Position numbers and translations under genes: made by a program. A stretch of DNA of 64,000 nt from Blastomyces gilchristii SLH14081 (lineage: Eukaryota > Ascomycota > Eurotiomycetes > Onygenales > Ajellomycetaceae). The notes beneath the pieces were generated by a model. The model was not told where the DNA came from and made no database searches. It worked only from the letters and a program-made list of their open reading frames with translations. Positions 15,524-58,155 of this stretch are shown one piece after another (positions within the stretch are counted from its first letter, which is position 1; every line of letters starts with the position of its first letter). The stretch is taken from assembly GCF_000003855.2 (NCBI RefSeq), contig NW_003101682.1, positions 4,513,306-4,577,305 on the forward strand, given 5' to 3'.

Positions 15524-15535
15524 ACTGTAACTGAA

Positions 15536-17415: not shown

Positions 17416-17427
17416 ACTGTAACTGAA

Positions 17428-18055: not shown

Positions 18056-18431
18056 TTATTATTATTATTATTCTTCAATTATAGATGTATGCAGTCAGAG
18101 ACTATGACATCTACCTGAGAATCTTTAGTTCTCAGGGTTTTTCCTATATCTATAGAGTCAACTATTATACATTTATCAATTTCAAATATGCAAAATCAGA
18201 AAATTCCAGCTCAGAATACAAAAACTGTTTACAAATTGCAGTATTTCAACACCTTCTGATAGTTTGAAACCATTTGAAAATATTATGACAAAAGAAAAGA
18301 GAACATAGTCTTAAAGATAGACACATTAAATAGATAGAGAAAAGAACAGAAGGAAACAAGTACAGTAAAGAGAGACTATAATAAAACAAAATTATTAAAA
18401 GATGATGTATAGCTGTTTTAACAGACTATAT

Positions 18432-21400
18432 CTAGTCAATTTCCACTTCTTCATATTCAGATACTTCTGAATTCAGTCATTTTCTTGTAGCTGCTCTAGT
18501 TTCTGATAGAAAGTCTATTAAGTATTTAGTTCCTGTCTCAGTTGAGAATAAGAACCTCATATTTAATTGATTTAAATCATACTTTTTCTTTAATCTGACT
18601 CTGAGACTATTGTATAATGCACAATGCATTACAATACACTCAGGATTTTCATTCACATTGCAGAATGAGCACTCTGTTGAATCAAATCTATCATCAAATC
18701 TTTGTATATAAGATTTGAAATAATCATGTCCTAGTTTCAGCTGAATTATAGATGAGAATATTTTCTTTTTACATTTAATTAAACAAGATTTTCACTTTGG
18801 TTTTGTCTCAAATCTTGAATAATGTATACTCTTCTTTTGTTTCTGCCAGCTTTCATTCCACTTATTTAAACAAGATTCTTTTATCTTTCTCTTTATGAAA
18901 GACCAGGACACTGTTTTTTGAATAGATCTGCTTAATTCTGAACTCTTTTTTGCAGCTGAATCAGCCAATTCATTGCCATGAATATTCATATGAGCAGGAA
19001 CTCAATGCAGATGAATTATCAGTTTTAATGTTCTTCTCTTTTAAATTTTCAAAACAGAGTTTAAAATCAGTTCAAGATTCATTTGATCATTATGAATCTG
19101 ACTATTTCTAAGTCTTTTTAAAGCAGCTTGACTATCAGAGAATATTCATGCCTCTTTCAAATCATTTCCTCATTTATGAGATTTTATTTCAATGAGTTTG
19201 AAAGCTTTCACTATTGCAAATAGTTCAGCATCAAAGACTTCAGATTCACAGCCTAAATTTCAGAAATCTGAGATAAAATTAATATTATCTTCAGTATAAG
19301 CAATGCCTGCGCCTAATCTATTCAAATTCTCATTTTTTAAGTCATCTGAGTAGATCAGAATAGAGTCTTTTATATTAATTGTAGAGATCTTCTTCAAATG
19401 CTGTTCATATTCTCTCTCTTTATATAGTTCATTTATTTGTAAGTCTATGAGAGATTCCAGCTTTTCTCTTCAGAGAGATATCTTCTCATGATCAATTTTC
19501 TCAACATTTAATGAAGAAAATTGATTCTTAATAAGTGAACATAGTCTATACAGTTGAGAGGGCATTTTCTTTAAAGTATTATTGTCATTCCAATCAAGAA
19601 ATCTATTTCAATCCAGTTCATTTCCTGAGTTAACTGATGAAAATGAAGAAGAGACTCTTTCTCTGATTATATGATTTGAGCTCATCTTCATGACTCTCAG
19701 AGCATAGTTCATACAGGCCTTTTCAAATTGAATAGCAGGAGGTGGAATTGAAGCTTCAATTTTCATTGCTTTAATAGAAGATGACTTGAATGCTCCCAGA
19801 ATTCTTCTCAAAGCTCTGTTTTGTAGACTTTAAAAGAGTTCAGTGAAGTTTTCTTGATTATTCCATCAAACTTAAACTTCATAATCAGCTACTGAGGTAA
19901 TACAGGCTATGTATAACTGTCTTATAGCCTGAAAGAATAGACCTCTCTCAGTATTTGATAGTCTGATTATACTATTCAATAGTCTCTCTGTCTTGATGAT
20001 TCTTTGTTGAATATGATATTTAAAATTCAACTTGCAGTTTAATCATACTCCTAGTCATTTGACATTTAAACTGGGTTTAATCTCTTTATTCAAAAGAGTG
20101 AGACTTAGTTCTTTCTCATTAAATCTGGGAAAAAAGTGAATTAGCTCAGTTTTATTTATATCAAATTGCATTAGATTGATATCTGCTCTAACAAAGATTT
20201 TCTTTACTGCTTTCTCAATCACTTCTAAATTCTCTTTGATTGTCTTTGAACTGTAGAGTAGATCAATATCATCTACATAACTTGAAGATCTCACTATTCT
20301 CATCTCTCTATTCTTGAATAGATATGCAGTGTATATTGCAAATAAAACAGGTGAGATTGAAGATTCTTATAATACTTCTATTTTTATCTCAGTTTTATCT
20401 TGTTTTCTTCCATCAAAGAATAGTTGTATAATTCTTTTAGACATGAAACAATTGACTCATTTTATTAGAGAAAGTGACAGTTTTAACATCTTCAAAGTTT
20501 GAATCATCTTAGACTTTGACATATGATCAAATGCATCTTGTATATCAATAAAAACTGCAATTGAGACCAGGTCTTCATGCTTTGCTACTTGAATATCATG
20601 AATAACTGAGAGAACAGTATCAATTGCAGAACATTGTTTTCTACCTCTCATTTATTCATTAAATAGAAGAGAATTACTAATAGAGCTTATAAAAGATAAT
20701 CTAGTAGCTATTATCTTTTCTAGAATTTTTTCCAAACAGTTCAACAGAGATATTACTCTATATGACTTAGGAATTGAAGCCTTTCTATTAGGTTTTGCAA
20801 GGATTACTCCAGTAGCTTCTCTCCAGCATTCAGGATGATAATCATTTTTTAAGAGATTGAAAAAGAGCTCAAAATATTCATTCTTCAAGTAGAAATATGT
20901 GTTTTAAATAATTGAGTGATTAATTGAATCAGGCCCTGCAGCAGTTTTAATTGAACTTAAGAATATTACTGACTCTAGTTCATCATATATAAGCTCAGGC
21001 CATTCTCAGTTATTTTCATCAATATATTCATGAAATGACATATTCTCCTCTTCTAAATGTGATGAGTTTTGAAAGAGAATTCTCATAAAAGCTTAATATT
21101 TTTCCTCAAAAGAATTTGCTGTATATAATTCATTCTGAAATTCATATTCTAAGGTTGAAAGCTTTGCTACACTTCTTGTTTTAGTATAGTTAAAGGCTTT
21201 GAAAACTTCTTTTTCTTATGCTTCTTCAAGAAATTTGTTCCAGCAATCTGTTTTGACTTTTTTAATATCTGAAAAATATTCATTTTGAATAGCTTTGAAC
21301 TCTTCATCAGATATTAAGTGATTCTTTCAATCTCTCTTAGCAGTGACTAATTGCTTTCTTTTAGAAGTGATATTCTCATTTCATCAAGGTTTAGAATACT

Positions 21401-22376
21401 CAGAAGACTTTTTCTTTGAAATATTTTCTTCAATACTTGTTAGAAAAATAGATGTAATCAGCTTTACTCTATTCTCAAGCATTTCATTTGATATATCTTG
21501 ACTTTGATTTCAATAGAGCTCACTCTGTCTTTCAGATTTCAGCTATTTTACTCTTTCTTCAACTGCTTTTCAATCAGCTTTTTCAAAGTTATACTGATTA
21601 GAGAGAAGAGGATTTTCACTTCTTTGTTTTTCACTCAGTTCAATATTAAATTGAATAATCTCATGACCTGATTCTGAGGTTTCATTTGAATCAATAAATC
21701 AGTTTATAAGTCTTTTTTCAATTAGATTTTGTGACATGAAAGTTAGATCTATAATAGATTTCTGTTTCATGCCTTTTCTAAAGAATGTTTGTTGATCAGA
21801 CTTGTTAACTAAATCTATTAAATGCTCAAAAGTTAATTCAACCAGTTTATCTGCTCTTACTGCTCTTATACACTCTGAGTTTCATCAGAGATGATGTGTA
21901 TTGAAGTCTTCTGTAATTATAGAGTTTTTTAAGAGAGTTATATTCAAAAATTCTCTATCAATTGTCCAGGTATTGTTGTTTTCTTTCAATGATTTTTCAT
22001 TATAGATATTTATAAGTTGAATAGTATCAAACTCATTATCTTTATCTATAATGTCACTCACTAGAATGTCAGAGTCAGATATGATATCAAATCTCAGATT
22101 AAATTGATATCTTGATCTTTTTCTCTCATAGATTGCTACTCTTGATTTTATCTCAGATTTTTCTGAAAGAAAGTAGTAATAGCTTGAATGAGAAATGATG
22201 TACTTTTACTCAGTATCAAAGTTTGATTCTTGAAGAAGTACAAAGTTAACTTTTTATTCAAATACAATCTGAAGACAAGAATAAATGCAATTTGAGTTTC
22301 TATTCACATTGTTTTGAATAAATGTGATTTTTGAAGAGTTTTTAAACTTTTTTTGTTGTTTTTATTGTACATTCAT
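18432..22376 (-). pseudogene. L4 ORF2: endonuclease, reverse transcriptase, RNase H
   Basis: Decayed pol-like protein of about 1,300 codons that nicks DNA and copies LINE RNA. The chosen start is the ATG at 22376, matched by an open frame in L6. APE endonuclease: ITFIQNNVNRN (about 22320), LLQES (22225) and EDFNTHHLW (about 21890). RT: RGRKQCSAIDTVLSVIHDIQ (20650), VFIDIQDAFDH (20545), active site YVDDIDLLYSS (about 20275). RNase H: SDDLKN (19345), FDAELFAIVKAF-type region (19215), FSDSQAALKRL (19135), HMNIHGNELADSAAKK (18990). C-terminal Cys cluster CSFCNVNENPEHIVMHC near 18665. It is broken by many stops, mainly TGA at Trp. Confidence 0.92.
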
Positions 22377-22405
22377 ACTAAAAGAGAGTGAAGATATAGT
22401 AGAAT

Positions 22406-24004
22406 CTAATCACTATCACCAGATAGTAGATTATAACTATTTTGAAAAGCAGGAATCTCAACTGCTTGCATTCTATCTAGTTTATCATCAGAGTCATTTC
22501 TCAATTCTCTAATCTTAACAGATGTTTGAGAATTCAAATTCTGTTTATATTTAGCTGAAGAATTGAAGTTTGAAGACCTAGATTGTTGAGAGTTTCTTCT
22601 TTTTAAGCTTGCAGTTGTGAATTTACTGGCTTGACTTTTCTCTTCAGTTTTAGATTCACTTTGAGCTTCATCTTTTCTCCAGTTCTTCTGAGTTCTTGGA
22701 GTAAATACACATTCTTTTGAGCTAGATGCATGTTTTTCTTTGCAATTGAAGCACTTAAGCAGAGTATATTAACATATTTCACCTCTTTTTGAGCATGTTT
22801 CATATTTATACTCACTAGTTTTGTGATCTCTAGCACAGAATGCGCATTTCAAGTCTCTGAAACAAGAGATTGCAAAGTGTTCATATCTTTGACAGTTTGA
22901 ACACTGTGTTTGAGCTTTGAGATTCATTCTTGAATCTTTGTATTCATGAACTCTCATTTTCAAACCTGCTACTCTTACTTCAGAGATTCTTGACTGTTCA
23001 AGTGTTTTTATATACACTAGAACAGAGGCATTTCTTCTGCTCTGTCTGAACTCAATTGAATTAAGTCATACAGGCTCTTTTCTCAGTTGAATAGAATTGT
23101 ATTCTTCTAATTCATTTTTGAGAAGCAGCATTCCTTCCTCACAGTCAAAAATTTCAACTGGAATATCATGAAGAATGAATTTGTCTCACTTTTCATCTCT
23201 TTCAGATAGAATTGTTGTATTCAGTAGAGATTCTATTGCTGATTTTCAGAGATTCTCATTCTGAATGAGGAATTCTGCACTGAATTCAGGCATTGTAGTC
23301 AAAATAATAGAGTTTCCAAAGAAAGATGGCTCAATTGAAGCTATGACTGGTTTTTGAACTTCAATATCAGTCATTAACTGAGAAAAGAACTGCTGGTTAA
23401 TTTCATTTCTAATTCTGAAGATAAGATTTGAGTTTAGCTTGTTTTTTTGCAAGCTCTTCTGATTTGAGACTTTGAGAATAAGTCTTCTGTTTCTGAAGAT
23501 TTGAAAGTTCTTTTCTTTTTGCATTTCTTTTTTTTCCTTTCTATGAACAGAGGTCTGAGAAATATTCTTCTCAGTTTTCTCAGAATTTTGAGCAGATTTT
23601 GAACTAGCAGGTTTGAAGACAGCAGATTCTGCTACTTGAGCATATGTTTTTTTCTGATTTGAAGAAGAAGATGAAGAAGTAGAAGATGAAAAAGAGTCAG
23701 TGACTGTACTGGAAGATTTCAATGTTTTTTGAATTGTGTTTGAAATTCCAAGTTTGAACTTGATCACTTCTTGTAGTTGTCTAGCCTGAGCATGAAGAAT
23801 AAACAGAACTTCTTCATTCTCCTCACTCAGACACTGTTTTCTAAGAATTTTGCTTGCTTTTTCCAGTTTCTGTATTTCAAGAACTTGTTGTTTCTCTATT
23901 TCTTCCTTCTTTCTTCTCTTTAGAATTTCAATCTCAGGAACAGCATCTGGGAAAACATCTTTTTCCACATCAACTGAGTGTACTCTTAAACTCATTTTAC
24001 TCAC
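22406..24004 (-). pseudogene. L4 ORF1: gag-like nucleic-acid-binding protein
   Basis: The open N-terminus 24004-23246 (252 aa) has a charged coiled-coil-like helix (about residues 30-80), a Ser run (about 100-115), KTYAQVAESA as in Tad/CgT1-type ORF1 proteins, and a basic stretch followed by a predicted RNA-binding fold. After frame breaks, 23017-22769 carries zinc knuckles (CSNCQRYEHFAISC, then CAFCARDHKTSEYKYETC). The C-terminus ends near 22406 in a frame still open in the copy at 46149-46394. ORF1 packages LINE RNA; this copy is inactive. Confidence 0.88.
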
Positions 24005-24008
24005 TGAA

Positions 24009-24190
24009 TGAAAAGTTGGTCAGACTGTTTCAATTGAGAGATTTATCAGTCTATTTTCAAATGAAAAGTTGGTCAGACTGTTTCAATTGAGAGGTTTATT
24101 AATCTATTTTCAAATGAAAAGTTGGTCAGACTGTTTCAGTTGAGAGATTTATTAGTCTATTTTCAATTGAAAAGTTGGTCAGACTATTTC
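24009..24190 (-). repeat. 53-bp tandem repeat directly upstream of L4 ORF1
   Basis: Three full units (24009-24061, 24062-24114, 24115-24167) plus about 23 bp of a fourth. Each begins TGAAAAGTTGGTCAGACT. Units differ by one to four changes. They lie within 5 bp of the ORF1 start codon, so they belong to the LINE 5' UTR. Confidence 0.93.
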
Positions 24191-25029
24191 AAAAGAAGAA
24201 TGAAAGACTTTTGTGTATAAAACACCTGATTTTTTTCACACTAGTTCAGTAACTAGGTTAGATTTTTGAAGAGAATCTAATAAACTAAAAGTGATTTTTA
24301 AGATAAATTAATAAAATCTTTACAAACTCTTTCTTGGGATACAGTGAGGAAAAGTATGATATCAATTGATAATAAATCAGATGATATGACAGTTTTTGAG
24401 AGAAAAACTGACAAAAAATAAGTCAAATTTTTGCAGAGAAATTGATTAAAACTATTCAATTTTATTCTGAATCATTCAATTCTCCTCACACAACAAGTGT
24501 GCAACTCAAATCAGTCAATAAAGAGTGTAAAAGAGAATTAAGTATTAATGAAAGCTCTTCAGTCACTGAAAAAGTAATTCTTACTTAAAAGAATATGAAA
24601 TTATGACAGAAAACAACTCTGTTTTTAATTCTTTGTAAGAATATTGTGTAAAACCCAGAGAAAAACACCTTACTTTTTCAAGAGAAGTAAAAAACTATTT
24701 CTAAGATCTTTTTTTTATTGCATTAACTGCTGCAGAAGAATGAGATAGAAACTGCTAAGATATACACTACTGTATACTCTCTATCAAGACTTTCCCTCTT
24801 CAGAGTCTTGATATTATAGAGAATATAAGTCTGTTTCTATATAATAATGTAAATATTGCCAGCGGGATGTAGAGGAACTGGTTATTTATATCTCAAAATA
24901 GAAGACTTTGTCAATGATTATATCAATATAGAGTTAATTCTCAAATTCAATAGAAACCTAGTATTGCTGTTCTCAATCTCTTGCAGAATCTATTGAATAT
25001 TGAGGTATTAAAACTAGATTTAATATATC
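24191..25029 (-). other. LINE L4 leader, AT-rich part
   Basis: Noncoding AT-rich stretch between the 53-bp repeats and the GC-rich 5' end. No gypsy A sequence is recognisable in it, and it lacks copies elsewhere in the window. Assigned to the LINE 5' UTR because the TSD partner lies beyond 25733; an unrelated insertion is possible. Confidence 0.5.
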
Positions 25030-25733
25030 TCACTGTGCAGGGATCAAAGGCTCAGTCAGACCTTGGGGTATACTGATTTTATAGTTGTTGTGTCTGCCGA
25101 TTATGTATCGAGTACAGTTGCTGAGGTATCTTTTTGTACTTTTCTGTCGGGGATGGGCCAGGTTGAGAGGGGTGGTACAAGGGTGAGACTTGGCGTTGAT
25201 GTCTAGATACGATACACTGAAGACAGACCGCGGAGGTTGCACTTCAGAAGTGGCTGTTGATTATGTGCTTGATATTATCGCCGAGGTATCTTTTTGTATT
25301 TTTCTGCCGGGGATGGGCCAGATTAGGAAGGGCGGTACGAGGGTGGGACTTGGCGTTGGTGTTTTGGAACATCAAAGGTGGGCAGGGTTTTCGCGGAGGT
25401 CGCTCCTCAGATATCTCCACAACTACAGATCGGAGATCTTCCAAAATCGAGAAGATTGGTGCATATGGCTAGGTCTATTCACCTTACAATTTGTATGGCA
25501 ATTTGGCCCGGGGTTGTGGTGTGGTAGGGGGGAATGGGGGATAGTCCCACACAGGAGTTTCGAACGACGTCTGGTTCACGTTTGGCTGGATAACTCCACC
25601 ACCACACGGGGTATGCGGTCGGCGATGGGGTCAAAATGCTCGTATGATCGAGGGCTTTTCGATGGATCTATCGGCGGGTTCTTATTCGAAAAATCGAGCG
25701 AGTTCGTGGTGGAGCGGTTGTCTGTATTTATGA
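25030..25733 (-). promoter_or_regulatory. GC-rich LINE 5' end with 160-bp repeats (putative promoter)
   Basis: About 700 bp rich in CpG and GG/CC, in sharp contrast with its surroundings. Two related units lie 160 bp apart, with ACTTGGCGTTG at 25188 and 25348 and GGGGATGGGCCAG in each. The last 108 bp recur at the 5' tip of L2, which fixes this as the LINE start. Internal promoters in repeated 5' monomers are known in other LINEs; the promoter role here is inferred. The 197-aa frame 25190-25783 runs out into gypsy A and resembles no protein I know, so I do not call it a gene. Confidence 0.6.
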
Positions 25734-25736
25734 CAC

Positions 25737-26419
25737 AGTTTATAAGAATAAAAGCTGTTACAGAAAAAGAAAAAAGAAGATAAAGTTTTATAAACAGATC
25801 TGGGATATTTATACTACTCTAGAGAGGTTTACTTACACTGTGAGTGATCTCATAGAACAGTCAGATCACTCTAGTAAATAAGAGTAATTATGAATCATAG
25901 ATCTGAATCTTTCTATATAACTATAAAGAGTGATTACAGACTGTGAATATCTTAATTCTATAATTCTACAGAGTTGATGAAAGAATGAAAAATTTCTCAC
26001 AATTCTACAGTGTCAAAGAACAATGATTTATAAGAATGAGTGAAAGATCAACTTGTAAATGCTTCTTCTTGATAGAGATGATCTCACAGAGAGTGATTCA
26101 TCTGTAAGATGAATCTGTGTGATGATCACTCAAGAATCTTGTGAAAATGATTGAGAGTCAATCAGAACTCTTCTATATGAAAGATGTGAGATGAATCTGT
26201 GTGATAGTCAGAGAAGAATCTGTAGATTATAAAGAATCTCACAGAATAAGAAACTAAGTGACAGACTCTTTTCTCTTCACAGTAATAAGAGATTTTTCCT
26301 CACTAAGATTTTTTATAGATGTGAAGAGTTTTTAGTGAGTATCACTGCAGTGCTAAGCTGATTCTATGAAGTCACTCAGTGAAAGGCTTCACAGATGAAG
26401 TCTTAGAGAGAGAGAGATA
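25737..26419 (+). mobile_element. Gypsy A (copy A-II) 3' terminal internal part
   Basis: Starts at AGTTTATAAGAATAAAAGC and matches 7440-8203 and, inverted, 42656-43425. It runs to LTR d. There is no coding frame. By TSD and LTR subtype it belongs with LTR f and the sequence at 50763-56813, not with LTR c. Confidence 0.88.
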
Positions 26420-26677
26420 TATTAGAAATCTCACTTCTTACAGATTCTTTATCTCTATTTCTATCTCTTGTGTAATCAATAGAGCTAGCGGCCCTTGGCT
26501 ACATACAACTATATAGTCTGGAGTTTGTAAATACTATTCACAACTCAGCTTGAATGCTATTATATATTTGATCTCTACATTTTATCTTCCTACTGTGAAT
26601 ACTTTTAGTAGTTAACAGTACATATCACGCCAAGCTGCAAACACCTGAATAATCGCCTGCGAGCACTTATTCTTACA
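26420..26677 (+). repeat. LTR d of gypsy A (3' LTR of copy A-II)
   Basis: A 258-bp LTR with the GTTAACAG and ATTTTATC subtype shared with f and a. The right flank TAAGA (26678-26682) is the reverse complement of TCTTA beside LTR f (58151-58155). Confidence 0.92.
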
Positions 26678-26818
26678 TAAGAGTAAACAGTAAGTCTCAC
26701 TGAGACAGTATAAGACTACTATCTAATGTTAAAACTATATAATGAGATTAGTTGAATTGATAATGAGAGCATCAAACATTCTGATCCCGGTTCCAGACAC
26801 AGTCACACGGTCAGTCTA
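26678..26818 (-). mobile_element. MITE X-II, 5' half
   Basis: Reverse complement of the first 140 bp or so of MITE X, from its terminal TAGACTGACCG at 26818 to the gypsy A insertion point. The outer flank is TACAGAGT (26819-26826), the reverse complement of ACTCTGTA at 58521-58528. The missing 3' half is at 58156-58520. Confidence 0.9.
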
Positions 26819-26826
26819 TACAGAGT

Positions 26827-31728: not shown

Positions 31729-31736
31729 AATATAGA

Positions 31737-32242
31737 TAGACTGACTGTATGACCGTGTCTGGGACCAGGACCAGATTTTTTGATAGTTTCATTACCAATT
31801 CGACTGATCTCATTACACAGTTTTAAGATTAGATAGTAGTCTCATACTGTCCCAGTGGGACTTACTGTCTACTCTTGTCACATTTTCCAAATGGGACTAT
31901 GATTTTCACTTCTCAATTTAAATTATTTTTATTGCTTTAAATGACTTTAAATCTCATTTGAGCATTATCAAAAAGCGTTACTTTTTAAAAAATTAAAAAT
32001 AGTCTAAAAAAAACCTTAAAATATCTAAAAATAGTAACTTTATGCCAAGAATAGGACTAAATGAGACCAAATGGGACCACTTTCTCATTTTTTTCAAGTC
32101 ATGGTTCCATTTTAAGATCTGATATATAGTCACTTTACATGTTTTTTTGATAGCCAGTCCCAGCGGGATTCACGCCAAGAAATGTATGGGACCAGACCAA
32201 ATGGGACCAAATGTGAAATTCATGGTCCCGGCGGCCAGTCTA
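31737..32242 (+). mobile_element. MITE X2 (best preserved copy)
   Basis: 506 bp, TAGACTGACTG...GGCCAGTCTA, with a perfect 8-bp TSD AATATAGA (31729-31736 and 32243-32250). It retains GG/CC-rich subterminal motifs of the type AATGGGACCA in both halves (e.g. 31894, 32080, 32200), candidate transposase-binding sites. It lies just upstream of the gypsy C gag remnant. Confidence 0.92.
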
Positions 32243-32320
32243 AATATAGATACATGAGATCATATCAGTCTGTTAGAACTTAACTGATTCAAACTTATAA
32301 TCAGATTAAGTAATTCAAAT

Positions 32321-32862
32321 TGTAATATAATAAGACTGAAGTGATGACTAGTCAGTAGTATTATATAGAGATAGTTGATTGAGAAGTTATATAAGTGAGC
32401 TTGACTATCTTACTTGAATAGTGCGCTTATAAGCTACAGAGTTATTATAAGAATATCACAGATATATTACTTAGTATACTAAGAAGATTGTATAAGAAAC
32501 ACAGTAACTCTTATATATATTTCAGTCTCAGAAAATGAATTGCTGACTTCTTTGATAAGAAGTCAGTATATAGTTATTCTATCTAGACAATGAGCAGATA
32601 CTATTCTCTCATTTCATGAGTGAGAATAGTCAGAGTGATATCTCAGCAGTGTCTTACTATTATGAAAGAGTAATCTGCTGACCTTATATAGAAGTGAGGT
32701 TCTCATATTCATCAATCAGATCTTCCTATAATATATCTGAATGATGTCATAGAGTGATTGGAAACCGGTTCAAACAGCCTGCGGGATGGATGAAATCATC
32801 CGCAGGGAAGCGATGGGCCGTGTGGAACCGCAACGCGGCCTTGGCGCGGCCGGGGGCGTGAA
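32321..32862 (+). repeat. LTR-D fragment with an unmutated GC-rich end
   Basis: Homologous, inverted, to about 60240-60782 (LTR of gypsy D). It starts TGTAATATAATAAG against TGTAACGTGACAGG there. Up to about 32755 it is decayed. From 32756 to 32862 it is GC-rich and apparently unmutated, whereas the same part of the other copy (about 60245-60350) is heavily mutated. It ends where LINE L5 begins. Confidence 0.75.
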
Positions 32863-33192
32863 AGTAATAGTCTCTCTTTACTGTACTTATTCCTTTCTGT
32901 TCTTTTCTATCTATCTATTTAATGTGTCTATCTTTAAGACTATGTTCTCTTTTCCTTTGTCATGATATTTTCAAATGATTTCAAAGTATCAGAAGGTGTT
33001 GAAATACTGCAATTTGTAAACAGTTTTTATATTCTAGGCTGGAATTTTCTGTTTTTGCATATCTCAAATTAGTAAATGTATACTAGTTGACTCTATAGAT
33101 ATAGGAAAAACCCTGAGAACTAAAAGTTCTCAGGTAAATGTTATAGTCTCTGACTGCATACATCTATAATTGAAGAATAATAATAATAATAA
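32863..33192 (+). mobile_element. LINE L5, 3' UTR fragment
   Basis: Only the last 330 bp or so of the LINE, from TCTCTCTTTACTG to the (AAT)n tail at 33175-33192. It begins at almost the same LINE position as the LINE part of chimera 3. No TSD is found between the 5' junction and the flank CGATTAGAAG. Confidence 0.85.
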
Positions 33193-34158: not shown

Positions 34159-34539
34159 GATGTCAGAAAGATTATTATTATTATTATTCTTTTATTATAG
34201 ATGTATGCAGTCAGAGACTATGATATCTATCTGAAAACTTATAGTTGTCAGAGTTTTTCTAGTATCTGTAAGGCTAAATATTATACATTTGTCAATTTCA
34301 GATATGCAAAATTAGAAAATTCCAGCTCAGAATTCAAAAACCTCTTATAAATTACAGCATTTTTAAAATCTTCTGATACTTTTGAAACCATTTGAAAAGT
34401 AACATGACATAGGAAAAGAAACAAAGTCTTAAAGATAGACACAGTAGATGGAAAAAAAAGAAAAAAAAGAAACTGTAAGAAAAGACAATAACAAAATAAA
34501 CATGTTTTAAAGAGAGTGTATAGCTGTTTTAACAGACTA

Positions 34540-37500: not shown

Positions 37501-39003
37501 TAATTTAGAGTATTCAGAAGACCTTTTCTTTGAAATGTTTTCTCTAACACTTGTCAAAAAATAGATGTAATCAGATTTGCTCTATTTTCAAGTCTTTCAT
37601 TTGAGATATCTTGACTCAGGTTTCAATCAAGCTCACTCTGTTTTTCAGATTTCAGCAGTTCTATATTTTCTTCAACTGCATTTTAATCACCTTTCGCAAA
37701 GTTATATTGATTAAAGAGAAGAGGTTTTTCACTCATTTCTCTCTCACTCAGTTCAATATTAAATTGAATAAGTTCATGTTCTGATTCTGATGTCTCACTT
37801 GAATCAATAAATTAGTTAATAAGTCTTTTTTCAATTAGATTCTGTGATATGAAGATTAAATCTATTATACACTTCTGTTTCATGCCTTTTCTAAAGAACA
37901 TTTGTTGATAAGACTTGTTAACTAAATCTATTGAATGCTTAAAAGTTCATTCAATTAGTTTCTCTGCTCTTACTGCTCTTCTGCATTCTGAAATCTATCA
38001 GAGGTGATGTGCATTGAAATCTCCTACAATTATAGAGTTTTTGAATGAAGTTATGTTTAAAAAAACTCTCTTAATTATTCAGGTATTATTATTGTGTTTC
38101 AATCACTTTTCATTATAGATATTTATAAGTTGTATAGTATCAAACTTATTCTGTTTATCTATAATGTCACTCACTAGAATATCAGAGTGAGATATAGACT
38201 GGCCGCTCCGATCATGAATTTCATGTTTGATCTCATTTGATCTGATCTCATACATTTCTTGACGTGAATCCTGCTGGGACTAATCATTAAAAAAACACAT
38301 AAAGTGACTATGTATCAGACCTCAAAATGAGACCATGACTTAGAAAACATAAGAAAGTGGTCTCATTTGATCTCATTTAGTGTCATTGTTAGCATAAAGT
38401 TACTATTTTTAGACATTTTAAGGTTTTTTTTAGACTATTTTTAATTTTTTGAAAAGTACCACTTTTTCGCAACACTGAAATGAGATTTAAAGTCATTTAA
38501 AACAATAAAAATAATTTAAATTGAGAAGTGAAAATCATGGTCTCATTTGAAAAGTGTGATAAGAGTAGACAGTAAGTCTCACTGAAACAGTATGAGACTA
38601 CTATCTAATCTTAAAACAGTGTAATGGGATCAGTCAAATTGGTAATGAGATTATCAAATATTCTGATCCTGGTCTCAGACACGGTCACACGGTCAGTCTA
38701 GTCAGATATAATATTAAATCTCAGATTACACTGATATCTGAATCTTTTCCTTTTATAAATGACTACTGTTGATTTTACCTCAGATCTTTCAGGTAAAAAG
38801 TAGTTATAGCTTGAATGAGAGATAATGTACTTCTGCTCAGCATCAAAATTTGATTCCTGAATAAGAATAAAATTCACTTTTTGTTCAAATTCAATTTGAA
38901 GACAAGAATAAATACAATTCGAATTTCTATTCACATTGTTTTGAATGAATGTGATTTTTGAAGAGTTTTTAAACTTTTTTTGTTGTTTTTGTTGTATATT
39001 CAT
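34540..39003 (-). pseudogene. L6 ORF2 (interrupted by MITE X3)
   Basis: Same domain order as L4 ORF2. The open N-terminus 39003-38709 begins MNIQQKQQKKFKNSSKITF and holds FILIQESNFDAEQKY (endonuclease Glu). RT: RGRRKCSAIDTDLSVVHNIQ at 36762, VFIDRKDAFDHVS, and the active site YVDDINLVYSS at about 36400-36370 within a 129-aa open piece. RNase H and the C-terminal Cys region lie towards 34750. The 67-aa piece 35922-35719 is the segment between RT and RNase H. X3 interrupts the endonuclease part. Confidence 0.9.
38195..38700 (-). mobile_element. MITE X3
   Basis: 506 bp, opposite in orientation to X1 and X2, TAGACTGGCCG...CGGTCAGTCTA. The TSD is GTGAGATA (38187-38194) and GTCAGATA (38701-38708). 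The empty site GTCAGATA is visible in L4 near 22073-22080, confirming insertion into a LINE. Confidence 0.92.
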
Positions 39004-39034
39004 ACTAAAAGAAGGTAGAGATTAAATACAATCT

Positions 39035-39792: not shown

Positions 39793-39804
39793 GATGTGAG
39801 AAAG

Positions 39805-42398
39805 AGCATGATAATAATAAATACTAATTTAAAGAAGTCTACTCTCCACTCAGAAGAATACAAGAAGAGTAGTTACTATCAGAGTCATATAATGAAAACA
39901 GAAGTTATAGAATAATAGATACTGTATAATTCATAAAGAATCTTCTGAAATGAATATTTTCTCTAGTTAATATAAACAACACTCTTCTCTGCTATCTGAA
40001 TCAGAAGATATGCAGAATATCTCAGAAGATTTACTTAAAGTAGTAAGAAAAACCGCTGAGGTTACAGAACTAAAAGTGAAGCTCTGTATATATACAAGAA
40101 TTCTAAATGAAATTAAAGTCTAATGTATACAGTGACCGACTGAAGCAGAAGTTAAGTAATAATTAGTATTCATCATAGATCAAGTATTTACTATGAAGAG
40201 CTTCACTGATATCATTATCATTATTAATAAGAAAAGAGATAACTAGGTTATAGATTCATAGTAAGAGATTGAATACTTATACAGACGGATAATTACATCA
40301 AATCTGAAGATCTTATTATAATTATTCACAGTCTTTTCAGAAGTGTATGTATCATCTGAGACTGTTATATTTAATAAGAATTCAAATATAAGTTATATTA
40401 AGTCAGATAATCTGCTAGAGCTATCAAGCTTTAATAGTAACTGAAAGAATAATACTGTAATTATCTGACTAAGTTAAATGAAATCATGTTATTATATTAA
40501 GTATGAACTCACAGATAAACAAGTTAATAAAATTTCAACAAGTCTTAAAATCTGCAGTATTTCTACACAGAAAAGCAAAGTCATTATAAATGATAGATGA
40601 AAAGATAAATCTCACAGATCAGAAGCAGTATTCATTCTTATAAACATGAAATAAGTTTTTCAAATGAATCTTACACAACTTTTAGAAAGTAAATATATGA
40701 GATAAGTGTTATAAACACTTTACTGAGTGTAAATAAGTAAGTGATCTTATATCATACTTCACACACTACAGCTTATACTACCTTGTATTAAATAAAGAGC
40801 TTTTATCATGTTTTTATTCATAAATCTTTATCCATAATCTTACATATGAGTTAAGAGTGAAATGAAAATACTTAAGCTTATAATCAGATACAGTGAAAGA
40901 GAAATATAATATTCTTATTATATGAGATCAAGTGAGTTCACTGTGATAGAAAATACTGTAATCAAGTATATCTCAGCAGAGAATGAGTGATCAGACTTTT
41001 ATAATACAAGTTACATACTTAGATAGCCCCGGTGACCGAATGGTTAATGCGGCCACTCAGTAGCGCCTTGGCGTGGGAAACCAAGGCATGTGGGTTCGAA
41101 ACCCGCAGGGAATACATTTTATCCGGAACTCAAGCACCGCAGGTTTCTAATAAATACAGAGATATACAAATCGCTTCAACAAATCACTCTATGTTTCTGG
41201 AATGAAAAGTTATTATCACATGTATTTAATTATTACTCCTTTGTATTTTCTATGTTCTTGTTATCTTGACATGATCTCAACACCTGTATTTCCTTCTGTA
41301 TAACTAACACTTGATCTGTATTTAACATCACACAATGACTCATCATAAGCTTCACTTGTATATGAGTATAATGAAAGAATAATAATAATAATAATAATAA
41401 TGTACTTAGATACAATGAATCTAGATTTGAATATTATTATTAAAGCACTGAATTCTCTGAAAAAGAAATTCTCTAAGTGAAAATCTTAATATTATGAGTA
41501 TTAAGCTAGCTTTAACTGCAAATGCTACAATCATGATATAAAAGATTACACATAGTATACATAATCAAGAGAAGCAAGAGAGTGAAAAAACTAGCAGAAT
41601 CAATGAGCTTAAAGACACTCACTGATATTCTATGAAAAGTCTTTAAAGTTTAAGAAATATCTGTATTAGATGACTCTCTGAATTCTGTAAATATTAAGAG
41701 AAAGCAGACTCTTAAATAAGATACAGATGAGAATAAAGAAGCAGATACTTATATCAATATCTTAAGATCTGAAATGTTAATGAATAGAGATCACTTGTGT
41801 AATAATTAAGAGATAGCTGCAAAAGTATTAGCTGATATAAAAGCTTCTACATAATATATTAATGATTATATAATTTGAAAGCTGCAAGAGATCTGTTCAC
41901 TGAAGACTTCTCAATGTATAAGAGTATCTGATAATTGATATTTAGTTTCACCTGCGAGAATAAGAGTTCTCTTGCACTTTGAAGAATGACCTTGCTATAT
42001 CTGAGTGTGAGAGCTGCAGAATATGAAATATGACCTTATTCTTAAACTTCATTAATGTCAAAAGCTCAATCTGCAGATTCAATGATGTATATATCATATG
42101 AGATTGACTTATAGAAAGAAAATGGTTTAAATAATTCTACAAACTGATATGAGAAGAACATTTCATGTCTCTAATATAGAAGAGTTAAATCTGCGTATAC
42201 ATTAATAAGCAAAGAGAATGATTTACAAGATCTCATTCAAAAGTATTGTGTATATCATATAAGATCTAAAAGAGAAGAAAACTAAGATAAAGAATATATA
42301 AGAGAATAAGTGTATGAAGAAACTTCTAGAGAAGTATGAAAAGATCTTCTGAACAGATTTTTCAGTGACATTACTGATGAAACAAGAATTCATACATG
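39805..42398 (+). pseudogene. Gypsy B gag and protease side (with SINE inserted)
   Basis: Plus-strand decayed sequence with no long frame. It ends at LTR e with flank ACATG, and the reverse complement of that flank precedes LTR c at 11820-11824. If the segment is turned round it joins the minus-strand gypsy B RT at 11824 in the correct gag-to-pol order. A possible Cys/His cluster occurs near 40700. Function is assigned mainly from this continuity. Confidence 0.6.
41026..41402 (+). mobile_element. tRNA-derived SINE, family S1 (complete)
   Basis: About 377 bp, starting GCCCCGGTGACCGAATGG, with B box GGTTCGAAACCC near 41094 and (AAT)n tail 41379-41402. The TSD is TACTTAGATA (41016-41025 and 41403-41412). 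Its head is less mutated than the copy at 9887. Confidence 0.92.
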
Positions 42399-42655
42399 TG
42401 TAAGAATAAGTGCTCGCAGGCGATTATTCAAGTGTTTGGAACTTGATGTGATATGTACTGATAGCTACTGGAATTATTCATAGTAGAAAGATAAATGTAG
42501 AGATCAAATGTATAATAGTATTCAAGCTGAGTTATGAATAGTAGTCATGAACTTCAGTCTATATAGTTATGTGTAGTCAAGAGCTGCTAACTCAATTGAT
42601 TACATAAGAGATAGAAATAGAGATAAAGAATCTATGAGAAGTGAGATTTCTTACA
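42399..42655 (-). repeat. LTR e of gypsy A (3' LTR of copy A-I)
   Basis: A 257-bp LTR, TGTAAGAATAAG...GATTTCTTACA as written on plus, in the opposite coding orientation to c and d. Subtype like b and c. The left flank is ACATG. Confidence 0.93.
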
Positions 42656-45403
42656 TACTTTTCTCTCTCTAAGACTTCATCTGTGAAGTCTTTCACTGAA
42701 TGATTTCATAGAATCAGGCTCAGCACTGCAGTAATACTTGCTAAAAACTCTTCATATCTATAAAAAGAATCTCAGTGAGGAAAAATCACTTGTCATTATA
42801 AAGAAAAAAGAGTCTGTCACTCAGTTTCTTATTCTGTAAGATTTTTTATAATCTGCAGATCTTTCTCTAACTATTATACAGATTTATCTCACATCTTTTA
42901 TATAGAAGAGTTTCAGTTAACTCTCAATCATTTCTGTGAGATTTTTATATAATTATCACACAGATTTATTCTGTATCTTTTAATCTGAAGAGTTTCAGTT
43001 AATCTTCAATCATTTTTCTATGAGATGCTTGTGTGACTGTCACACAGATTTATCTCACAGATGAATCACTTTCTATGAGATCATTCTTATCAAAGAGAAG
43101 TATTTATAAGTTAATCTTTCACTCCTTCTTATAAATCATTATTCTTTGACACTGTAAAGTTATAAGAAATTTCTCATTGTTTTATTAACTCTGTAGAATT
43201 GTAGAATTAAGATGTCTGCAGTCTGCAATTACTCTTTATAGTTATATAGAAAGATTCAGATCTATGATTCATAATTATTCTTTATTTACTAGAGTGATCT
43301 GAATCTTTCATAGAATCACTCATAGTATAAATAAACTTCTCTAGAGTAGTATAAATATCTCAGATCTATTCACAGAATCTTATCTTCTTTTCTCTTTTTC
43401 TGTAACAGCTCTCATTCTTATAAACTGTGAGTATCTTCATTTATCTGTGAAGTGTTTTCACTCAGATGATAGAGAAAGAGTGTTTCTGATAATATCTGTA
43501 TATTAATTCAAGAACTTCTTGAGAAGAAAAAAAAAAATTCAATTTTAATATCTTTATGAATAATATCTGATCATTACTGAGCTTCTTATAAGTGTCTCTG
43601 CAACATCTCTGATTACTCTCTACTGATTGATTAAGTAGAGATATTATTATCTGTAACAGTGTTTTATTCTCTTCAGCTCTGTTACTATATTCTATCTTTA
43701 AGTCAGCAGTCAACTCTGTGCCTTTCTCAGGCCAGTTTCTGACTTCTAGTGATGCAGTTCTGTTCTTTACTGTAAGTCTTGCTATAAGTAATTTCTTACA
43801 GACTCTAGTTATCAGTTTCTGCAAAGCTCTCAGTGCTGTCAGTGCTCTCTACAGCTCTGCAGATCTATGACTATTCTCTCTCTACTCACATGATCTCTGA
43901 TCAGATATATGCAAATATATCTAAGTTCTCTATTAATAGTTCTCACACTGCAGCACATTTCTGCAATCTCATTATTAATCAGAGATGAGTTTCTGAATAT
44001 CTGTAAAAGTCAGGTAATTAAAATAATATAAATGCTATGAATTCATGACAGAAGTTAATCTGAATAGATGAGCTCTCTCTTCATATTTAAGTGCTTTCTA
44101 AGCTGAATACTTCAGCATAACTGAGAGAGCAGATACAGCTTTGTAAGAGATATCTGATAATATATGTAGATAATCAGCTCTCAAGACTCTGCTGTAACTG
44201 TATATACTCTGATATTCAGCTCTCTTAAAGTCTGTGCATTTGCAGTAGTCTTTGTATTAAATATAATAATTATCTATATTATAGATATAATACTCTCTGC
44301 TTCTTTACAGAGAAGAATTGATAGTTATAAGAAGATTGAATATCACAGATGTTAAGAATCTGAGTATGAATGATCTTTATTTTTTCTTTATTTTTTCTTT
44401 GTTAATCTCTAAATTGTGTTCACAGTCTTATTTTTATTTTTCTTTATTTTTAGCTTTAATAATAATATGATTTCTTCTTCTCTTTATATACACTGCAGAC
44501 TATTCATCTCAGTAGAAACTCATTATCTTTATAGACTAGAGTTTACAAATAACAGTATTAATATCTTTATTATAATCAGGTTATTAGTGAAGACTGTACT
44601 ATTCTGACTTATTACAATTTATAATATAGAAGTCATGTCTCAGCTTCTGCAGATGTCTTATCTATCTGAATAACTCTTAAGATAACTTATTCATTTTATC
44701 AGAATACTCTTATTACTGAACCTTGAATCAGAGCTTATAATCTCACTTCTCTGAGTTAATAATTTCTTTAATCTGATATTCTCTTTCACTTTCTAGTACT
44801 TTATAAACAGAGTGATACATCACAGAATTCTCTTTTAAGAATTTCTTACATTCACAGAGTAAAGAGATATGAAAAATATTATATATCTATAACTTAGATA
44901 ACAGTTTCAATCTATAGAACTGTGAATTAACTTTCTTTATAATCTTATAAGACTCTGTCTATAAGAGATTCAGCTTCTTACTAGATCTCTGTATAATAAT
45001 ATTTTTCAGACTCAGTCAGACTCTATCATCTTTCTTAAAACTCTTTATAATATACTTAGAGTTATAGTATCTCTTCTGATACTCTTAAGTCTTTCTTAAG
45101 TATTTACAGACTTTCTTCTGAATATTCTGAATTCTCTCAGTCTGTTCACAGATATTATCACACTCTATAGTATACTCTCACAGATTTATGAAGATTATTC
45201 CCAGATAAGTCTTAGTAAACATCTCAAAGAGAGTTTTATCTGTACTGATATACTTTAAGTTATTATATATAAACTCTGTAAATAATAATCAATACACTTA
45301 GTTATTCTGATTATAATTGATAAAGTACTGCAGATACTGTTTTAATATACTTATCAGATATTCTATCTAATCATCTATCTATTGATAAAAAGCTGTGCTT
45401 ACA
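42656..45403 (-). pseudogene. Gypsy A (copy A-I) integrase C-terminal and 3' part
   Basis: Minus-strand sequence. About 45250-44940 gives integrase C-terminal text such as EQTERIQNIQKKV, EYQKRYYNSKYI and KKDDRV.LSLKNI (RNA-like and SH3-like region before the 3' end). The open piece 43824-43462 (120 aa, starting MQKLITRVCKKLL) lies further downstream and has no recognised domain. It is co-linear with 50763-52735, which is the same part of the other copy. Confidence 0.8.
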
Positions 45404-46429
45404 TCTTATAAGATCTGCCAGCGTGGCCCAGTTGATAAGACTGGTAACCAAGGCCGCACACATTAGAGGTGCGTGGGTTCGAATCCCACCACTAGCACCT
45501 GTCACTTCTTACCCATGAAAGCCCTCATGTAATAGAGGCTGAGCCTAATTAGTAAGACTTGGTGTGGGGTAGAACTCTCTACTGCAAGCCAAGCCACTAG
45601 TTAAGTGAGATCCTGTGAACACCCATCAGGGCCGGCATGAGATGCTAATATCCCACTATTCTACTGTGCACCCGTCAAGGTTCTAATGATATAGAGTCAA
45701 GCCTAATGTAGTGATTATACATTACTTAAGCAAGTCTCTAACTAGGGCTGTCATCAGAGCCTAGCTCCCCCTCAAATACAGAGAATGATTTTGAAAACTA
45801 CTTAACTAGCAGGTCTAGACATGCATCTAGGCCCTAGGCAGGGCACCCTGATAGGCTAGAGCCTGCAAGCTCCCTGCCAAGCCCTAATACTGGCAGAGAG
45901 GACTGCAGTCATCAAGCCTATGATTAGTCTCTAACACAGGGTGAGGTCATGACAGCTGATTGATAGGCCTATGAGCATCTAATGAGACTGAGATCAGCAA
46001 CCGGAAGCTTGGTGTGTACACCACCAAGTGGGCGGTGGCAGCCACTAACTAACATCCCTGGAAATTAGTGGCTGGCCTGAGAGGACAGATGTGGTGATCA
46101 GTTAATTATAGAGGGTTAAATGTAATTAGCTTAAGGTGCATTCTGCGGGTGGCTAGCGCCTGTAGTCAAGCCAGTAAATTCACAACTGCAAGCTCAAAAA
46201 GAAGAAACTCTCAACTATCTAGATCTTCAAACTTCAATTCTCCAGCTAAATGTAAACAGAATTTGAATCCTCAAACACCTGTTAAGATTAGAGAATTGAG
46301 AAATGACTCTGATAATAAACTAGATAGAATGCAAGCAGTTAAGATTCCTGCTTTTCAAAATAGTTATAATCTACTATCTGATGATAGTAATTAGATTCTA
46401 CTATATCTTTACTCTCTTTTAGTATGAAT

Positions 46430-49400
46430 ATACAACAAAAACAATAAAAAAAGTTTAAAAACTCTTTAAAAATCACATTTATTCAAAACAATGTAAATAG
46501 AAACTCAAATTGTATTTATTCTTGTCTTTAGATGACATTTGAATAAAAAGTTAACTTTGTACTTCTTCAAGAATCAAACTTTGATACTGAGTAAAAGTAC
46601 ATCATTTCTTATTCAAGCTATTACTACTTTCTTTCTGAAAAATCTGAGATAAAATCAAGAGTAGCAATCTATGAGAGAAAAAGATCAAGATATTAATTTA
46701 ATCTGAGATTTGATATCATATCTGACTCTGACATTCTAGTGGGTGACATTATAGATAAAGATAATGAGTTTGATACTATTCAACTTATAAATATCTATAA
46801 TGAAAAATCATTGAAAGAAAACAATAATACCTGAATAATTGATAGAGGATTTTTAAATATAACTTTCTTAAAAAACTCTATAATTGCAGAAGACTTCAAT
46901 GCACATTATCTCTGATGAAACTCAGAGTGCACAAGAGCAGTAAGAGTAGATAAACTGGTTGAATGAACTTTTGAGTATTCAATAGATTTAGTTAACAAGT
47001 CTGATCAATAAACATTCTTTAGAAAAGATATGAAACAGAAATCTATTATAGATCTAACTTTCATATCACAAAATCTAATTGAAAAAAGACTTATAAACTG
47101 ATTTATTGATTCAAATGAAACCTCAGAATCAGGTCATGAAATCATTCAATTTGATATTGAACTGAGTGAAAAATAAAGAAGTGAAAATCCTCTTCTCTCT
47201 AATCAGTATAACTTTGAAAAAGCTGATTGAAAAGTAGTTGAAGAAAGAGTAAAACAGCTGAAATCTGAAAGACAGAGTGAGCTCTATTGAAATCAAAGTC
47301 AAGATATATCAAATGAAATGCTTGAGAATAGAGTAAAGCTGATTACATCTATTCTTCTAACAAGTATTGAAGAAAATATTTCAAAGAAAAAGTCTTCTGA
47401 GTATTTCAAACCTTGATGAAATGAGAATATCACTTCTAAAAGAAAGCAATTAGTCACTGCTAAGAGAGATTGAAAGAATCACTTAATATCTGATGAAGAG
47501 TTCAAAGCTNNNNNNNNNNNNNNNNNNNNNNNNNNNNNNNNNNNNNNNNNNNNNNNNNNNNNNNNNNNNNNNNNNNNNNNNNNNNNNNNNNNNNNNNNNN
47601 NNNNNNNNNNNNNNNNNNNNNNNNNNNNNNNNNNNNNNNNNNNNNNNNNNNNNNNNNNNNNNNNNNNNNNNNNNNNNNNNNNNNNNNNNNNNNNNNNNNN
47701 NNNNNNNNNNNNNNNNNNNNNNNNNNNNNNNNNNNNNNNNNNNNNNNNNNNNNNNNNNNNNNNNNNNNNNNNNNNNNNNNNNNNNNNNNNNNNNNNNNNN
47801 NNNNNNNNNNNNNNNNNNNNNNNNNNNNNNNNNNNNNNNNNNNNNNNNNNNNNNNNNNNNNNNNNNNNGCCTGATTCAATTAATTACTTAATTATTTAAA
47901 ACACATATTTCTACTTGAAGAATGAATATTTTGAGCTCTTTTTCAATCTCTTAAAAAATGATTATCATTCTGAATGCTGGAGAGAAGCTACTGAAGTAAT
48001 CCTTACAAAACCTAATAGAAAGACTTCAATTCCTAAGTCATATAGAGTAATATCTCTGTTGAACTGTTTGAAAAAAATTCTAGAAAAGATAATAGCTACT
48101 AGATTATCTTTTATAAGCTCTATTAGTGATTCTCTTCTATTTAATGAATAAATGAGAGATAGAAAACAATGTTCTGCAATTGATACTGTTCTCTCAGTTA
48201 TTCATGATATTCAAGTAGCAAAGCATGAAGGCCTGGTCTCAACTGCAGTTTTTATTGATATAAAAGATGCATTTGATCATGTGTCAAAGTCTAAGATAAT
48301 TCAAACTTTGAAGATGTTAAAACTGTCACTTTCTCTAATAAAATGAGTCAATTGTTTCATATCTAAAAGAATTATATAACTATTCTTTGATGGAAGAAAA
48401 CAAGATAAAACTGAGATAAAAATAGAAGTATCACAAGAATCTTCAATCTCACCTGTTTTATTTGCAATATACACTGTATATCTATTCAAGAATAGAGAGA
48501 TGAAAATAGTGAGATCTCTAAGTTATATAGATGATATTAGTCAACTCTACAGTTCAAAGACAATCAAAGAGAATTTAGAAGTGATTGAGAAAGCAGTAAA
48601 GAAAATCTTTGTTAGAGCAGATATAAATCTAATTCAATTTGATATGAATAAAACTGAGTTAATTCACTTTTTTTCCAGATTTAATAAGAAAGAACTAAGT
48701 CTAACTCTTTTGAATAAAGAGATTAAACCCGGTTTAAATGTCAAATGACTAGAAGTATGGTTAAACTCCAAGTTGAATTTTAAATATCATATTCAACAAA
48801 GAATCATCAAGGCAGAGACACTACTGAATAGTATAATCAGACTATCAAATACTGAGAGAGGTCTATCCTTTCAGACTATGAGACAGTTATACATAGCCTG
48901 TATTATCTCAGTAGCTGATTATGAAGTTCAAGTTTAATGAAATAATCAAGAAAACTTCACTGAACTCTTTCAAAGTCTACAAAACAGAGCTTTGAGAAGA
49001 ATTCTGAGAGCATTCAAGTCATCTTCTATTAAAGCAATGGAAATTGAAGCTTCAATTCCACCTCCTGCTATTTGATTTGAAAAGGCCTGTATGAACTATG
49101 CACTGAGAGTCATGAAGATGAGCTCAAATCATATAATCAGAGAAAGAGTCTCTTCTTCATTTCCATCAGTTAACTCAGGAAATGAACTGGATTGAAATAG
49201 ATTTCTTGATTGAAATGAGAATAATACTTTAAAAGAAAATGCCCTCTCAACTGTATAGACTATGTTCACTTATTAAGAATCAATTTTCATCATTAAATGT
49301 TGAGAAAATTGATCATGAGAAGATATCTCTCTGAAGAGAAAAGCTGAAATCTCTCATAGACTTACAAATAAGTGAACTATCTAAAGAGAGAGAATATGAA

Positions 49401-50375
49401 CAGCATTTGAAGAAGATCTCTACAATTAATATAAAAGACTCTATTCTGATCTACTCAGATGACTTAAAAAATGAGAATTTGAATAGATTAGGCGCAGGCA
49501 TTGCTTATACTGAAGATAATATTAATTTTATCTCAGATTTCTGGAATTTAGGCTGTGAATCTGAAGTCTTTGATGCTGAACTATTTGTAATAGTGAAAGC
49601 TTTCAAACTCATTGAAATAAAATCTCATAAAAGAGGAAATGATTTAAAAGAGGTATGAATATTCTCTGATAGTCAAGCTGCTTTAAAAAGACTTAGAAAT
49701 AGTCAGATTCATAATGATCAAATGAATCTTGAACTGATTTTAAACTCTGTTTTGAAAATTCAAATGAGAAGAATATCAAAACTGATAATTCATCTGTATT
49801 GAGTTCCTGCTCATATGAATATTCATGACAATGAATTGGCTGATTCAGCTGCAAAAAAGGGTTCAGAATTAAGCAGATCTATTCAAAAAACAGTGTTCTG
49901 ATCTTTCATAAAGAGAAAGATAAAAGAATCTTGTTTAAACAAGTGAAATGAAAGCTGGCAGAAACAAAAGAAGAGTATACATTATTCAAGATTTGAGACA
50001 AAATCAAAGTGGAAATCTTGTTTAATTAAATGTAAAAAGAAAATATTCTCATCTATAATTCAGCTGAAACTAGGACATGGTTATTTCAAATCTTATATAC
50101 AAAGATTTGATGATAGATTTGATTCAACAGAGTGCTCATTCTGCAATGTGAATGAAAATCCTGAGCATATTGTAATGCATTGTGTATTATACAATAGTCT
50201 CAGAGTCAGATTAAAGAAAAAGTATGATTTAAATCAATTAAATATGAGGTTCTAATTCTCAACTGAGACAGGAACTAAATACTTAATAGACTTTCTATCA
50301 GAAACTAGAGTAGCTACAAGAAAATGACTGAATTCAGAAGTATCTGAGTATGAAGAAGTGGAAATTGACTAGATA
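46430..50375 (+). pseudogene. L7 ORF2 (contains the assembly gap)
   Basis: Same protein as L4 ORF2 and, by eye, about 97-98% identical in DNA on both sides of the gap, sharing many stops. Endonuclease: ITFIQNNVNRNSN at 46480. RT: MRDRKQCSAIDTVLSVIHDI at 48152, VFIDIKDAFDHVS, active site YIDDISQLYSS at 48522. RNase H: SDDLKNENL at 49460 and the NIHDNELADSAAKK region at 49825. The C-terminal Cys cluster lies near 50135. There are multiple TGA at Trp. Confidence 0.9.
47510..47868. other. Assembly gap (359 N)
   Basis: The undetermined run lies within L7 ORF2 between the endonuclease and RT. The homologous interval in L4 (about 20935-21290) is 356 bp, so the gap size is close to the real missing length. 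The two open frames across it are artefacts. Confidence 0.98.
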
Positions 50376-50762
50376 TAGTCTGTTAAAACAGCTATACATC
50401 ATCTTTTAATAATTTTGTTTTGTTATAGTCTCTGTTTACTGTACTTGTTTCCTTCTGTTCTTTTCTCTATCTATTTAATATATCTATCTTTAAGACTATA
50501 TTCTCTTTTCTTTTGTCATAATATTTTCAAATGATTTCAAACTATCAGAAGGTGTTGAAATACTGCAATTTGTAAACAGTTTTTGTATTCTGAGCTGGAA
50601 TTTTCTGATTTTGCATATTTGAAATTGATAAATGTATAATAGTTGACTCTATAGATATAGGAAAAACCCTGAGAACTAAAGATTCTCAGGTAGATGTCAT
50701 AGTCTCTGACTGCATACATCTATAATTGAAGAATAATAATAATAATAATATTCTTATAAACT

Positions 50763-58150: not shown

Positions 58151-58155
58151 TCTTA

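Follow-up and report, generated by a model that had tools for sequence, protein, structure and literature searches.

Swapped target-site duplications and empty sites indicate an inverted segment between two opposed LINE copies in a Blastomyces gilchristii sequence

The DNA analysed here (the window) is a 64,000-nucleotide stretch of Blastomyces gilchristii SLH14081 (contig NW_003101682.1, positions 4,513,306 to 4,577,305) that consists of nested transposon sequence and is ~70% AT. It contains two copies of a long interspersed nuclear element (LINE), L4 and L7, which lie in opposite orientation, are 96.6% identical across 4.6 kb and have flanks that pair only crosswise. The question raised by this locus is whether the DNA between the two copies has been turned around since the elements inserted and, if so, whether this took place in the chromosome or in the assembly. 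A first-pass annotation had proposed an inversion by recombination between the LINEs. The flipped order was upheld by the target-site duplications (TSDs) and by the restored joints described below, whereas the event in the chromosome is only likely, as an assembly mis-join would look the same. The features at the two LINEs are as follows, with L4 and L7 being the copies as they now stand and LINE A and LINE B the insertions as paired by their TSDs.

18043..18055, plus strand, TSD of LINE A, copy 1 (AGATCTTATAAGA)
18056..25736, minus strand, LINE copy L4, with the 3′ end, bearing (ATT)n, on the left
25737..25749, plus strand, TSD of LINE B, copy 1 (AGTTTATAAGAAT)
45404..45416, minus strand, TSD of LINE A, copy 2 (inverse)
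45417..46166, plus strand, module of ~749 bp joined to L7 on its 5′ side and belonging to the family of 15538-16286
46164..50749, plus strand, LINE copy L7, 96.6% identical to L4 18056-22636
47510..47868, run of 359 N in L7, for which the L4 equivalent is 356 bases, 20935-21290
50750..50762, minus strand, TSD of LINE B, copy 2 (inverse)

The LINEs lie within two copies, G1 and G2, of a long terminal repeat (LTR) element, gypsy A, and G1 in turn is associated with X-II, an element resembling a miniature inverted-repeat transposable element (MITE). The parts of these hosts in the window are:

11825..12081, plus strand, LTR c, the 5′ LTR of gypsy A copy G2, preceded by CATGT (11820-11824)
26423..26677, plus strand, LTR d, the 3′ LTR of gypsy A copy G1, followed by TAAGA (26678-26682)
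26678..26818, one half of X-II (MITE-like), 8-bp TSD TACAGAGT at 26819-26826
42399..42655, minus strand, LTR e, the 3′ LTR of G2, preceded by ACATG (42394-42398)
42399..45416, unbroken stretch of gypsy A copy G2, through the LINE B target site at 43414-43426
50750..53365, uninterrupted gypsy A stretch (G1), through the LINE A target site at ~52723-52736
57965..58150, minus strand, LTR f (part), the 5′ LTR of G1, followed by TCTTA (58151-58155)
58151..58520, the other half of X-II, TSD ACTCTGTA at 58521-58528
6586-7094, 31737-32245 and 38192-38700, intact X copies

The LINE TSDs match at 6/13 and 6/13 bases when paired locally in register, versus 13/13 and 13/13 when paired crosswise in inverted sense. 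Inverse cross pairing also restores 5-bp TSDs to gypsy A, CATGT at LTR c matching ACATG at LTR e (5/5) and TAAGA at d matching TCTTA at f (5/5). The X-II duplications, TACAGAGT and ACTCTGTA, agree at 8/8 bases crosswise only (inverted, ACTCTGTA/ACTCTGTA), while at each of the three remaining X copies an 8-bp TSD is found locally (7/8, 8/8 and 7/8). At the per-base match probability of 0.29 in this AT-rich window, the chance of a prespecified match is ~1e-7 for a 13-mer, 5e-5 for an 8-mer and 2e-3 for a 5-mer. The first-pass annotation had reported local mismatch and exact inverted agreement at all five places, and this was borne out. It had further placed one LINE TSD pair within a palindromic 16-mer, AGATCTTATAAGATCT, a sequence with 0 matches in the window; the palindrome is limited to an inner 12-base core.

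Thirteen bases is an ordinary TSD length for this LINE family, whose traits are an (ATT)n 3′ tail and TSDs of variable length in 6/15 other copies. These were 14 and 12 bp in 2/6 other copies in the window, and 15, 16, 14 and 8 bp in 4/9 fetched copies, the nine being those whose alignment to L4 ends within the fetched flank.

As hosts and guests all belong to repeat families, the original continuity of each host can be looked up elsewhere. We searched the genome (74.8 Mb in 75 contigs, the window lying within an 8.17-Mb contig) with 320-bp joins of the flanks in either the restored or the present order, and counted a joint as spanned where a match extended 30 bases or more to either side of it. 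Each search scored and listed the 40 best places, so that the figures are not rates over all copies. The four restored joints (the G2 site, X-II, LINE B and LINE A) were each spanned without interruption at 40/40 of the best places, none of which was within the window. By contrast, the present-order join of 11824 to 26819 was spanned at 0/40 of the best places, as were the present-order joins of the L4 flanks and of the L7 flanks (0/40 each); the window's own two flanks were among the 40 best places in these searches. An example of the restored order is locus L002, on another contig, which carries the X-II host without X-II, its bases 3-1273 corresponding to 28089-26819 reversed and 1265-1497 to 58520-58742. 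Self-comparison of the window showed that the present order implies a 2-kb deletion at L4 and a reciprocal 2-kb duplication at L7. In addition, AGTTTATAAGAAT has a third site (43414-43426), which is the uninterrupted homologous target in the other gypsy A copy and therefore strengthens the case for inversion.

Together, the TSDs, the four restored joints and the three negative controls strongly support the middle segment being inverted relative to the insertion order, with both breakpoints inside the inverted LINE copies. L4 22637-25736 has no counterpart in L7 in the self-comparison of the window, and the exchange points are somewhere in 18056-22636 and the matching part of 46164-50749, in agreement with the shared LINE segment to which the first-pass annotation had assigned them. 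The inverted length is therefore 23.5-32.7 kb:

18056..50749 at its widest and 22637-46163 at its narrowest, the inverted segment, from self-comparison and the restored joints

Gypsy A LTRs c and e both start with TGTAAGAAAT and end with CTTACA (TG start, CA end); LTR f starts with TGTAAGAAAT and is cut short, and LTR d is without its first bases. The first-pass annotation had read the LTR subtypes as pairing c with e and d with f. We rejected overall identity as support for this pairing, since over 182 common columns the values were 0.857 for c-e and d-f, 0.868 for c-d, c-f and d-e, and 0.846 for e-f; only d-f was favoured, with one transversion versus 4-5 in the other five pairs and a one-base insertion common to both, which was also found in a third LTR, x. 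The gag-pol of a second element, gypsy B, had likewise been said to become contiguous on reversal, and the host repeats were indeed continuous at the G2 and X-II sites; the only host domain identified was an RNase H (10547-10969). This domain lies in the host repeat and not in gypsy A, a name that is itself a label carried over from the first-pass annotation.

A candidate that would have opposed the inversion was a pair of 430-bp repeats in the same orientation (9842-10272 and 40986-41411), considered as an LTR pair. This was rejected based on an (AAT)n end and a host at locus L007 lacking the second repeat, and the two are taken as separate insertions that are silent on orientation. The (AAT)n stretch near one end of this dispersed repeat is like the LINE tail, and the repeat is perhaps a short interspersed nuclear element (SINE)-like element.

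The explanation that we favour, at somewhat better than even odds, is a chromosomal inversion by a single crossover between the inverted LINE copies, that is, by non-allelic homologous recombination. Before the exchange, LINE A with its 5′ module would have resided within gypsy copy G2, and LINE B within gypsy copy G1, itself within the MITE-like X-II. A crossover between the opposed LINEs would invert the DNA between them and yield two hybrid LINEs, in each of which the 3′ part comes from one insertion and the 5′ part from the other. Every nested element enclosing a breakpoint would then show swapped TSDs. If real, the exchange would be the last of these ordered events, following both LINE insertions. 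We infer that the chromosome, rather than the assembly, carries the flip and that a single reciprocal crossover produced it. The first-pass annotation had cited three nesting levels, and swapped TSDs do occur at each; however, these are consequences of one exchange and not independent witnesses. Nothing here requires a new mechanism.

Several observations weigh against this interpretation. The order was deduced within one genome. Local TSDs were not clear in 4/6 of the window's other LINE copies and were absent in 5/9 fetched copies, one of which (L011) ends at LTR-like sequence, with the remaining four unexplained, so that absence alone is little proof; the case for inversion depends on the cross matches and empty sites, not on the lack of local TSDs. 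The only N run in the window, which the first-pass annotation had not reported, sits in the L7 breakpoint interval, adjoining 118 readable bases without a difference from L4. Finally, the alignment of L4 and L7 that the first-pass annotation had suggested for locating a switch point, which we compared with 29 other full-range LINE copies, revealed none (change-point permutation p 0.34).

Between L4 and L7 there are 147 differences over 4.2 kb, 145 of them substitutions, and of these 126 are transitions, 113 at C before A or C on either strand (73 before A and 40 before C). We take this pattern to resemble repeat-induced point mutation. C-to-T-type changes, which make up most of the 3.4% difference between L4 and L7, are of a kind expected to suppress recombination between repeats. 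The differences are for the most part transitions whose distribution among the copies is haphazard, both states occurring in at least four copies at 78/145 substituted sites. Subfamily signal was lacking at the transversion sites, as at 19/19 of them one state is absent from all 29 other copies. A gene-conversion tract was considered in the 3′ 1.68 kb of L4-L7, which is relatively similar (6/464 other pairs had as low a ratio), and was rejected: its boundary was chosen post hoc, and by lowest 600-base window L4-L7 ranked 102nd of 465 pairs. The tract was not used.

The strongest competing explanation, to which we give somewhat less than an even chance, is an assembly error, in which the chromosome keeps the ancestral order and the middle segment was flipped by the shotgun assembly; a real inversion and an assembly flip would give the same pattern. 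Under this explanation the 3′ part of LINE A would have been joined into the 5′ part of LINE B, and near-identical reads would have collapsed into the first LINE, leaving the gap in L7. The position of the N run is consistent with this, as it lies within a stretch corresponding to L4 20919-21392 (474 bases) that has no readable difference from L7, 356 of the bases being unreadable in L7 and 118 readable. Identity as long as those 118 bases was found there in 8/465 copy pairs, L4/L7 included. The N run could represent either a gap in the scaffold or masked sequence, and its length, 359 versus 356 bases in L4, is as expected under either an inversion or an assembly error.

Gaps also occur nearby: besides the single N run in the 64-kb window, 30 kb of neighbouring sequence contains one that is at least 6744 bases long. 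As the neighbouring stretch is also gapped, it is not much of a coincidence to find a gap inside a long repeat. No N run was present in the 36 fetched loci outside the window (L001-L038), but 29 of these were chosen as unbroken LINE matches and, being biased, the count was not used as a rate. The neighbouring run occupies bases 1-6744 of locus L041 (G000:C1:4590000-4599999), ~13 kb past the window's right end.

The published SLH14081 assembly (75.35 Mb in 100 scaffolds) was made from Sanger reads with Arachne in a genome of 63% repeats, according to PMC4595289, which, if it is the assembly analysed here, lends further weight to an assembly error. Against this, and under the same condition, that project had a fosmid and two plasmid libraries that could bridge a 5-8 kb element. 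The optical map published for SLH14081 was made with BsiWI; the window contains 0 BsiWI sites, and the map therefore cannot show the orientation of the segment. L4 would be a false join as well under an assembly error, yet it has no gap. In addition, outside the N run the longest stretch without a difference between L4 and L7 is 214 bases, so that, given the 147 differences, reads of several hundred bases would mostly discriminate between the two copies.

A more complex history would have reached the same end state through at least two exchanges, or through template-switching repair of a break inside the LINEs. The exchange point is not placeable within 4.6 kb, so that multiple exchanges inside the LINEs would look identical. 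We regard such a history as very improbable because the halves are exactly reciprocal, there is no extra loss or gain at the flanks examined, and one crossover suffices. Hardly credible at all is that the present order is original, with L4 and L7 in place and flanked by short 8-bp TSDs and the cross matches due to coincidence or a preferred target: although an 8-bp string is the longest shared locally at both LINEs (TTATAAGA/TCTTATAA) and fetched copy L012 also has an 8-bp TSD only, 103/2000 random pairs in a control had at least 8 bases in common, exact cross matches of 13 (two), 5 (two) and 8 bp (one) occurred at prespecified places, and the joint searches opposed this order at 0/40 best places in three cases versus 40/40 in four for the restored one.

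An extension of the favoured explanation, a single crossover in the chromosome, is that the inverted LINEs act as a standing flip point despite the 3.4% difference between them, with the 23-33 kb segment segregating, and recurring, in either orientation among Blastomyces isolates. We consider this extension improbable.

The longest frame of the LINE has its protein matches in Blastomyces (28/28), the best being 96% identical to a B. dermatitidis ER-3 protein. Matches to RVT_1 (20055-20366, 19.6 bits, below the cut-off of 29.6) and Exo_endo_phos_2 (21885-22205, 16.2 bits, below the cut-off of 27.4) were both in a broken frame. Only one stop-to-stop frame of at least 250 aa was found in the window and it is inside the LINE; hence, there was no sign of an effect on any host gene. 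Observed/expected ratios in the window were 0.16 for CpG, 0.37 for CpC and 0.44 for GpG.

The module of ~749 bp at the 5′ side of L7 (45417-46166), also found at 15538-16286, has at least 40 copies covering at least 727/749 bases. In 8/8 fetched loci (L001-L008, one being the window's 15538 copy) the 3′ end of the module runs straight into the LINE, each time at a different LINE position, a pattern that would be expected if the reverse transcription of the LINE had switched templates. The start of the module is, in our own reading, a possible tRNA-like stretch; ARAGORN found no tRNA. TSDs around the whole chimera were checked for two loci: that at 15538-17413 has a 12-bp TSD at its local ends, and the L7 chimera has one of 13 bp, crosswise only.

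Further LINE structures were observed in the window. An insert of ~1070 bp in LTR f of G1 (56894-57964) comprises ~750 bp unmatched in the window followed by the last 319 bp of the LINE, and is possibly another chimera with a LINE 3′ end. The LINE copy at 60785-64000 lacks the last 325 bases of its 3′ end and has a 524-bp sequence instead (region 60260-64000); that sequence recurs at 32320-32843, ahead of a separate LINE 3′ end at 32864-33192. Within the LINE copy at 677-2734, a stretch of 313 bp is directly duplicated (1801-2113 and 2124-2436, 98% identical).

More generally, nested insertions retain a record, in the form of swapped TSDs and empty sites, from which an inversion can be detected and its breakpoints bounded without a second genome. 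A real inversion would be a clear LINE-mediated one within the part of a Blastomyces genome that is filled with transposons; were it an assembly flip, the test used here would be a means of finding hidden mis-joins in such genomes. Among the titles listed for literature on LINE or retrotransposon inversion in Blastomyces, none concerned this inversion. PMC5852033 mentions inversions four times; in PMC4595289 the whole word "inversion" occurs 0 times (plural uncounted), and in PMC11540331 no word so beginning occurs.

Comparable arrangements have been described in other systems. With respect to the 5′ part of L7, and not the inversion, the fusion of non-LINE sequence directly to LINE sequence in L7 and in 8/8 fetched module loci resembles, by description, the WEIRD and MGL type of chimeric LINE retrogene known from Magnaporthe grisea (Gogvadze et al. 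2007, PMC2104539). In Mycosphaerella fijiensis, ectopic recombination was inferred from unequal target repeats in a set of 125 LTR retrotransposons (Santana et al. 2012, PMC3562529), and we similarly interpret differing flanking target repeats as recombination. However, the partners, their orientation and the segment are identified here, whereas the passages of that paper considered do not identify the partners.

A close parallel is retrotransposon recombination-mediated inversion (RRMI), an established mechanism that was described for L1 or Alu copies in inverted orientation in human versus chimpanzee (Lee et al. 2008, PMC2603318). Those inversions were recognized by comparing two genomes, whereas the evidence for the present one consists of nested TSDs and empty sites within a single genome whose assembly is unverified, and the elements are L1 and Alu in the former case and a fungal LINE in the latter. 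In both, the breakpoints lie inside two inverted retrotransposon copies and the amount of DNA is unchanged.

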